Assembly: GCA_945901095.1 (NCBI GenBank)
Contig: CAMDKQ010000006.1
Span: forward strand, 1-39,942
Source of the DNA: Bifidobacterium breve
GTDB lineage: Bacteria; Actinomycetota; Actinomycetes; S36-B12
Direction: 5' to 3'
DNA length: 39,942 nt
The translations under genes were made by a program, and so were the position numbers. This document shows positions 20,921 to 22,333 of the stretch, in pieces (within the stretch, counting starts at the first letter, position 1; every line of letters begins with the position of its first letter). The notes under the pieces are model-generated. The model searched no databases and had not been told where the DNA came from. It saw only the letters and a program-made list of their open reading frames with translations.

Positions 20921-20990
20921 TCTGCCGTGTGTTGCCCTCGTTGGGGGCACTTGACTTGAGGGCAGGCGACTGCCGAGGAAAGGGTTGACT

Positions 20991-21248
20991 ATGAGTGAAT
21001 TCGGCAAGGCGGCGACTGAGAACAAGCGAATCTCCGTGCGTGGTGTCATCGCCATCATCATTCTCGTGATCGCTGTGGTGTTTATGGCGCAGAACACGAC
21101 AGATGTGACCATCAGGGTGCTCGGCTACAGCTATGACGTCTGGCTGTGGGCGCTGATCCTCGTGGTCTTCCTGCTCGGAATGGTCCTCGGTGGCGCCGTT
21201 CGCGCGGGAGTCCGCAAGCTCCGTGGCGAGGAGAAGGCACCGAAGTAA
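20991..21248 (+). CDS. LapA-domain (DUF1049) small membrane protein
   Basis: An 85-residue protein with two membrane helices: about 20-38 (VIAIIILVIAVVFMAQNT) and 50-70 (WLWALILVVFLLGMVLGG). A basic C-terminal tail RKLRGEEK follows. The NTTDVTIRVLGY linker between the helices is typical of LapA/YciS-like proteins, which help assemble envelope components. I chose the ATG at 20991 because GGAAAGGG precedes it; a TTG two codons earlier is also in frame. The TAA stop is followed immediately by the nested inverted-repeat element. Confidence 0.85.
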   Translation: MSEFGKAATENKRISVRGVIAIIILVIAVVFMAQNTTDVTIRVLGYSYDVWLWALILVVFLLGMVLGGAVRAGVRKLRGEEKAPK

Positions 21249-21350
21249 TCACGCTCACGTAACGGGTCGACTCGTGCGGCGCTTCATCGTCGTACGAGTC
21301 GACACCGAGGCCACGAGTCTCGAGGAGACTCGTGGCCTGAGTGAGCGTGA
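21249..21350. repeat. nested inverted-repeat element: closing stem plus two hairpins
   Basis: It begins at the base after the LapA stop. An outer 10-bp perfect stem (21249-21258 with 21341-21350; TCACGCTCAC/GTGAGCGTGA) encloses two perfect hairpins: 10 bp (21266-21275 with 21294-21303, 18-nt loop) and 13 bp (21308-21320 with 21326-21338, 5-nt loop). Together they form a three-way junction. Both hairpins contain GACTCGT/ACGAGTC, so the arms could pair in alternative ways. The 13-bp hairpin alone could act as a terminator for the LapA gene, but no U-run follows. Confidence 0.75.
21308..21338 (+). terminator. 13-bp perfect hairpin after the LapA gene
   Basis: AGGCCACGAGTCT-CGAGG-AGACTCGTGGCCT is a perfect GC-rich stem-loop 60 nt downstream of the stop codon. 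It is followed by GAGTGAGCG rather than U-residues, so it is only a possible terminator. Confidence 0.4.
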
Positions 21351-21376
21351 AGAGGCATGGTGACCACTTGGTTCAT

Positions 21377-21382
21377 TAGAGT
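21377..21382 (+). promoter_or_regulatory. -10 box of a leaderless promoter for the desaturase
   Basis: TAGAGT, then 6 nt, then the ATG at 21389. No RBS is visible. Confidence 0.55.
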
Positions 21383-21388
21383 GGTGCC

Positions 21389-22333
21389 ATGACCGTTCTA
21401 GCTGACGACCTAACCGCCCAGCGACTGCTCATCGACCTCGAACCCGTCGTCGAACGTGAACTCAACCGGCACCTGTCGACAGCGAAGGAATGGTTCCCCC
21501 ACGAGTACATTCCGTGGGACGAGGCAGAGAACTTCGACGGACCACTCGGCGGCCGCGAATGGACTCCGCAAGAGCGGCGATTCAGCGAAGCGGCCCGCAC
21601 CAGCCTCGTGATCAACCTCCTCACCGAGGACAACCTGCCGAGCTACCACTATGAGATCGCCACTCACATGGGTCGCGACGGCGCGTGGGGCACCTGGGTC
21701 GGGCGTTGGACTGCCGAGGAGGGCCGGCACGGCACGGCGATCCGTGACTACCTGCTCGTGACGCGGTCCGTCGACCCGATCGAACTTGAGCGTGCTCGAA
21801 TGATCCAGATGGAGGCGGGCTTTTCGGCGATACATCCGGGCCTGCTCGGTGGGCTTGCCTACGTCTCATTCCAAGAGCTCGCGACCCGCGTCTCACACCG
21901 CAATACCGGTACCGCGACCCAAGATCCGATCGCCGAGCAGCTCCTCGCCCGCATCGCGCTCGATGAGAACCTTCACATGATCTTCTATCGCAACACCTAT
22001 GCTGCGGCACTTGACCTCGCACCGGATCTAGCGATGCGCTCGGTAACTGACAACGTCCGAGATTTTGCGATGCCCGGGCACGGAATCGAGGGCTTCGGGC
22101 GAAAGGCGGTCGAGATCGCGGTCGCCGGAATCTACGACCTGAAGCAGCATCGCGATGAGGTCATCCTGCCGGTCCTGCGCAAGTGGCAGATATTCGAACG
22201 CAATGACTTCGGGCCCGAGGGGGAGGCTGCGCGCGACGAACTCTCCGCCATTCTCGCCGACATGGACGTGGCGGTGGATCGCTTTGAGGAGCGTCGCGAG
22301 GCGCTTCGCGCCCGGCTCGCTGCGCGCGACTGA
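21389..22333 (+). CDS. acyl-[acyl-carrier-protein] desaturase (soluble diiron type)
   Basis: A 314-residue enzyme of the plant stearoyl-ACP/mycobacterial DesA1-DesA2 family. It introduces a double bond into an acyl-ACP, using O2 and reduced ferredoxin. Diiron ligands are visible as E80 (LLTEDNLPSYH), E111-x-x-H114 (AEEGRHG), E164 (SFQELATRVSHRN) and E194-x-x-H197 (LDENLHM). The usual N-terminal HEYIPWDEAENF is intact. The position of desaturation cannot be told. The downstream ACT gene starts 8 nt after the stop. Confidence 0.95.
   Translation: MTVLADDLTAQRLLIDLEPVVERELNRHLSTAKEWFPHEYIPWDEAENFDGPLGGREWTPQERRFSEAARTSLVINLLTEDNLPSYHYEIATHMGRDGAWGTWVGRWTAEEGRHGTAIRDYLLVTRSVDPIELERARMIQMEAGFSAIHPGLLGGLAYVSFQELATRVSHRNTGTATQDPIAEQLLARIALDENLHMIFYRNTYAAALDLAPDLAMRSVTDNVRDFAMPGHGIEGFGRKAVEIAVAGIYDLKQHRDEVILPVLRKWQIFERNDFGPEGEAARDELSAILADMDVAVDRFEERREALRARLAARD

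Follow-up and report, generated by a model that had tools for sequence, protein, structure and literature searches.

The 102-nt element at positions 21249-21350 of the 39,942-nt stretch analysed here (the window) folds between two tandem genes, and it was originally predicted to be a structured RNA, a bidirectional regulatory element, a non-autonomous mobile repeat or a complex terminator. This raises the question of what the element is and how its stems came to lie at this place. To our knowledge, the origin and persistence of long, perfectly paired terminators without U-tracts in GC-rich genomes are poorly documented. The upstream gene (20985-21248, plus strand) is an open reading frame for a small LapA-like membrane protein; its LapA_dom match (E 4.3e-6, 27 bits) is slightly below the curated cut-off of 28, and the element begins one base past its stop codon. 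The downstream tandem gene (21389-22333, plus strand) encodes a fatty acid desaturase (FA_desaturase_2, E 3.3e-67). The relatives of this desaturase come from actinobacterial MAGs, several of them labelled Candidatus Nanopelagicales, and the host is a freshwater actinobacterium. The nearest two, at 98-99% desaturase identity, are recorded as Bifidobacterium breve, a label that we consider wrong. Three of the loci compared, L058 (CAMCSO010000009.1), L059 (CAMAWO010000010.1) and L068, are titled Bifidobacterium breve, and their desaturases and gene order place them among loci of the Nanopelagicales type; these titles are probable mislabels.

The hexamer TAGAGT (21377-21382, plus strand), which we take to be -10-like from the promoter consensus, lies six bases before the desaturase ATG and fits a leaderless start. 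A similar -10-like spacing was seen upstream of other Nanopelagicales desaturases. A consensus scan found no promoter.

Anatomy and stability of the element

A base-by-base check bore out the predicted perfect 10-bp closing stem directly after the lapA stop codon, with ten Watson-Crick pairs between the left arm TCACGCTCAC (21249-21258, plus strand) and the right arm GTGAGCGTGA (21341-21350). When both 14-nt flanks were shuffled, ten or more pairs were obtained in 3 of 200,000 cases. Two long hairpins lie within this stem. Hairpin 1 (21263-21307) contains the predicted perfect core of 10 pairs (21266-21275 with 21294-21303); with G-U pairs the fold has 16 continuous pairs and 3 more past a bulge, giving 19, and the segment 21262-21306 folds at -31.2 kcal/mol. 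Hairpin 2 (21308-21338) has 14 perfect pairs (21308-21321 with 21325-21338) around a loop of 3, rather than the 13 pairs first counted. The gap between the folded hairpins is 0 nt, which places them inside the limit of less than 15 nt for a hairpin cluster.

The complete element folds at -77.7 kcal/mol and its minus strand at -68.3 kcal/mol. The fold of 21240-21360 has a z score of -9.1, equalled by none of 200 shuffles. An energy scan of the window and 40 further stretches, together 834,303 bases of an assembly of 3,334,801 bases in 338 contigs, ranked the element first in stability among 48,852 segments of 102 nt; the next distinct site reached -63.5 kcal/mol. The scan alone was used for this ranking, and a search of the same genome for nested hairpins with perfect stems did not list the element because the loop closed by the perfect stem of hairpin 1 exceeds the 12 nt allowed.

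The motif pair GACTCGT/ACGAGTC is common to four arms of the element, and two alternative pairings had been predicted from it. Both exist, the first from 21269 rather than 21268 (21269-21276 with 21312-21319, 8 bp) and the second at 21294-21300 with 21327-21333 (7 bp), but when either is forced the best fold is -49.9 or -49.4 kcal/mol, about 28 kcal/mol worse than the fold with two hairpins. Folding of pieces growing from 5' to 3' indicated that hairpin 1 forms completely before any of hairpin 2 is present.

Conservation of the parts across the genus

Among the five genomes of the genus set, the lapA 3' end could be read in four, and no lapA locus was obtained from G004; the interval was aligned in the window, G001, G003 and G002. 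Hairpin 1 is found at the same place in 4 of 4 readable loci, with fold energies of -31.2, -32.2, -26.7 and -31.3 kcal/mol, and is still paired despite a divergence of approximately 33% in the neighbouring 1.3 kb. In a gapless 41-nt alignment of these four species, 61 of the 64 cells formed by its 16 pairs are standard pairs. Double-sided changes occur in three of the 16 pairs (6-33, 7-32 and 9-30). The pairing score was reached by 10 of 500 shuffles, and slid registers gave no double change. This evidence for pairing comprises four sequences, and all three double changes separate G002, the most distant member, from the others; they may represent one event, and template switching could produce such changes without selection.

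The other parts are distributed differently. Hairpin 2 is absent from the alignment of G001 and G003 and was found in this species only. Over the 19 nt at 21310-21328 the window matches these two relatives at 6 and 7 positions, and the relatives match each other at 13, a pattern that would be expected if a copy of one arm of hairpin 2 had replaced the opposite arm. The right arm of the closing stem keeps 9 or 10 of its 10 bases in G001 and G003. Ten pairs remain possible in G003 (6 Watson-Crick and 4 G-U), and the stem is broken in G001 (5 of 10). The window, G001 and G003 are about equally distant from one another (91.4-91.6%), with 15, 14 and 14 sites supporting the possible branching orders, so that the view that hairpin 2 is derived rests on the agreement of G001 and G003.

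Judged from this alignment, the element is composed of layers of different age and is not one conserved three-way junction. The predicted junction is real as a fold, but as a unit it is not kept in either G001 or G003. The original prediction had been made to depend on pairing conservation in close relatives, and such conservation was found, but for hairpin 1 only. It is also all that speaks for a structured RNA, for which an Rfam search of the element yielded no match at gathering score and one match at chance level (E 0.89).

The convergent gene S and the right arm of hairpin 1

In many loci of the family, lapA is followed by the end of an opposite-strand gene, here called S, which finishes with TPEDETLLGIDPYDD or similar. 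S encodes a conserved acidic protein of roughly 120-155 residues, and two members tested had no Pfam or NCBIfam match. Of 85 family genomes, 49 yielded an S-like protein, and 0 of the 5 genus genomes did; the contig of G002 ends inside S. The distance from the lapA stop to the desaturase start is 140-141 nt in the window, G001 and G003, and about 450-690 nt where a full S lies between the two. A minus-strand S after lapA was observed at L033, L034, L039, L041-L044, L046, L048, L049 and L052, in many loci between lapA and the desaturase. At another locus (L032 of G008), a 31-bp perfect hairpin with a 4-nt loop lies between lapA and S, immediately past the lapA stop, and is followed by a run of GGGC repeats; its sequence is unrelated to the hairpins of the window.

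The consensus of the S end is TLLG[IV]DPYDD. On the minus strand, translation across the right arm of hairpin 1 and its edge yields RGLGVDSYDD in the window (21286-21315), SGLGADSYDD in G001 and SVLGVDSYDD in G003; positions 21288-21303 of this putative fossil are the right arm itself. Against a ten-codon protein profile of the S end built from other genera, the window site is among the best 4 of 878,540 six-frame positions (440 kb), itself counted, and the G003 and G001 sites are equalled by 1 and 7. With a 30-nt DNA profile and 1,666,028 background positions, the G003 site is equalled by 0, G001 by 6 and the window by 8. The ten-codon profile was chosen after a longer one of 14 residues had given no minus-strand score above zero at the window site and -3.1 at the G003 site, and the match is only ten codons long. 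Therefore, much of the claim is carried by the DNA profile and by the fact that the sites lie at the single expected place and strand.

G002 retains the coding end of S (EDETLLGVDPCDAQE and the stop), with the hairpin beside further copies of that end. Three versions of the S end follow one another head to tail there, and the hairpin arm is the last of them. These 29-bp tandem copies (L009:19-117) change the C terminus of S to GVDPCDAQE. Outside the genus, G099 (L047) has no S and a desaturase match 106 nt after lapA, and it keeps an S-end match 4 nt after the lapA stop that 5 of 1,666,028 background positions equal. This loss of S would likewise have left an S-end match beside lapA, as if the neighbour needed those codons. 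A weak S-end match at L050 (G100) was not counted, since its score is reached at 2,919 of the 1,666,028 background positions.

In hairpin 1, the right arm appears to be the left-over tail of a deleted neighbouring gene. The original option of a bidirectional element probably applied at an earlier time, while a convergent gene was still present downstream. The element does not now lie between convergent genes; the convergent ancestor is suggested by G002 and the other genera.

Proposed termination and competing explanations

The element shares with canonical Rho-independent terminators a GC-rich hairpin after a stop codon. No T-run follows its stems in the sequence, the canonical U-tract being absent, and a consensus scan for terminators at the element returned 0 terminator-like sites. 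Hairpin 1 starts 14 nt past the lapA stop and agrees with the description of U-less (I-shaped) terminators, in which a stem lies within 50 nt of the stop and lacks a U-tract. In the 834 kb of its own genome, single hairpins of -30 kcal/mol or better follow 25 of the 345 gene ends that have room for one, compared with 1 of 190 at divergent starts and 3 of 776 in gene interiors; nearly all of the strong gene-end hairpins lack U-tracts, and hairpin 1 ranks 18 of 345 among gene ends. A first sample contained 47 gene-end hairpins of -18 kcal/mol or better; the highest number of T in the 8 nt after any of them was 5, seen in 2 cases. The overall energy shift at gene ends in this sample was not significant (p 0.088), enrichment being confined to the strong tail. 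The counts at gene ends and the scarcity of T indicate that U-less hairpins at gene ends form a class in this genome, of which hairpin 1 is typical. At the -30 kcal/mol threshold the enrichment was weak in 200-kb samples of G001 (4 of 98 gene ends, 0 of 47 starts and 3 of 190 interiors) and G003 (3 of 100, 2 of 58 and 2 of 188). Genes in these surveys were called by a home-made rule. As minor observations from the own genome, a 16-bp perfect hairpin fills a 63-nt gap between convergent genes (L154:17929-17964) and is a candidate U-less bidirectional terminator, and GGGTCG[AG] is present in several gene-end hairpins of the first survey, for which no enrichment is claimed.

Several known systems resemble the element. 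According to a review, mycobacterial genes mainly use U-less I-shaped terminators; the same review cites work on both sides of the dispute whether U-less hairpins terminate in mycobacteria, including a study titled as requiring the U-tract (PMC12288462). The terminators it describes likewise have a tall stem within 50 nt of the stop and no U-tract in a high-GC actinobacterium, whereas the element has two long hairpins and a closing stem instead of one hairpin, has an arm matching the end of a deleted convergent gene and is known from its sequence. Among terminators with several hairpins, clusters of two are reported to be the most frequent; like the element, they have two hairpins less than 15 nt apart near a stop codon; matched clusters have stems of 7.4 pairs on average, compared with 14 to 19 pairs and an enclosing stem here (PMC8355165). 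For bidirectional terminators between convergent genes, compensatory evolution under selection is on record (PMC5381666); double changes that keep a stem paired and, putatively, a convergent ancestral site are shared with the element, but its second gene is gone and its stem overlaps the former coding end of that gene. Through template switching, a perfect stem can arise in a single event or be repaired, leaving double changes in one step, and the mechanism produces, as seen here, a perfect stem in one lineage with one arm replaced; the report describing it concerns RNA genes and does not mention terminators (PMC8794818).

The best explanation, which we regard as probable, is a U-less, terminator-like hairpin cluster at the lapA 3' end that was born at the end of the convergent gene S, kept after S was deleted and then elaborated. 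A complex terminator is also the best supported of the four roles originally offered. Such a cluster would most likely terminate lapA transcription, or fix and protect the 3' end of the lapA mRNA, and would so shield the putative desaturase promoter approximately 25 nt downstream. In a related but unlikely scheme, the hairpins would be a processing or protection point, with Rho ending transcription downstream and exonucleases trimming back to stabilise the lapA mRNA. The missing U-tract, the position after the lapA stop codon and the class of strong gene-end hairpins agree with this scheme as well, but the -10-like box and the desaturase start lie no more than about 25-40 nt beyond the element, so that a Rho site could hardly be accommodated ahead of the next gene. 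The shared motif in four arms and the position upstream of the desaturase would agree with a regulatory RNA or 5' switch for that gene, in which the alternative pairings are the second state. This is considered very unlikely, because the alternative folds are far less stable, hairpin 2 and the junction are not conserved, Rfam gave no match, and the desaturase start looks leaderless, so that the element would not be part of the desaturase mRNA.

Two further explanations concern the origin of the repeats. The palindromic anatomy recalls a non-autonomous mobile repeat of the MITE or REP type, for which multiple copies or filled and empty sites were sought and neither was found. The element has a single copy in its own genome, the copy search there and in the five genus genomes gave no dispersed copies, and among sequences with up to 3 mismatches to hairpin 1 the genus genomes contain only three orthologous sites. 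Since the spacing between lapA and the desaturase agrees within 1 nt in the window, G001 and G003, nothing was inserted at the locus, and this origin, one of the predicted options, is contradicted to the point of being hardly credible. It is also rather improbable that the element is a functionless mutational by-product, in which quasi-palindromes of the S end (GTCGAC, GATC) seed template switching or duplication into ever longer inverted repeats. Hairpin 2 and the perfect closing stem in a single species, the tandem copies of the S end in G002 and the known ability of template switching to make and repair hairpins (PMC8794818) are in its favour, but hairpin 1 has stayed paired across the divergence of its surroundings and strong hairpins are concentrated at gene ends.

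In the favoured account of a lapA terminator born at the S end, hairpin 1 would have arisen between lapA and S, with a stem made of the final S codons paired to their inverted copy, and would have been able to act on both strands. A deletion reaching as far as the hairpin would then have removed S in the common ancestor of the window, G001 and G003, leaving the hairpin in place as terminator of lapA. At a later stage, and in this species only, the adjoining 19-nt stretch would have been rewritten to hairpin 2 and the 10-bp closing stem would have become perfect, probably by template switching during replication. Template switching fits hairpin 2 and may also explain the double changes in hairpin 1; alternatively, the quasi-palindromic S end may have been duplicated directly, because G002 shows such duplications, and both fit the sequences equally.

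The element is ordinary in kind and unusual in stability, and its history lifts it above the ordinary. The sister species form a series from a gene with a hairpin at its end, through deletion of the gene with the hairpin kept, to a hairpin doubled and enclosed. It is tentatively proposed that terminators can be born from coding sequence, when the last codons of a convergent gene and their inverted copy make a two-way terminator that outlives the gene. If general, this would give GC-rich genomes a way to acquire long U-less hairpins. The locus also suggests that in compact genomes the terminator of a neighbour may set the limit of a gene deletion, which is testable across many genomes. A search of limited open literature found no published description of a terminator derived from the codons of a neighbouring gene and no publication on Nanopelagicales terminators.

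Two minor observations concern the desaturase side. A recurring palindrome (CCTACGGT..CGTAAGTTACG) was seen by eye near the start codon of many Micromonosporaceae and other actinobacterial desaturases (L071-L137) and not upstream of those of Nanopelagicales; it is perhaps the operator of a regulator. Within the desaturase gene, positions 21719-21786 of the minus strand match the Rfam family ASdes, an antisense sRNA of M. tuberculosis; the match may reflect only coding conservation, since 5 of the 6 further actinobacterial desaturase loci tested showed it as well.
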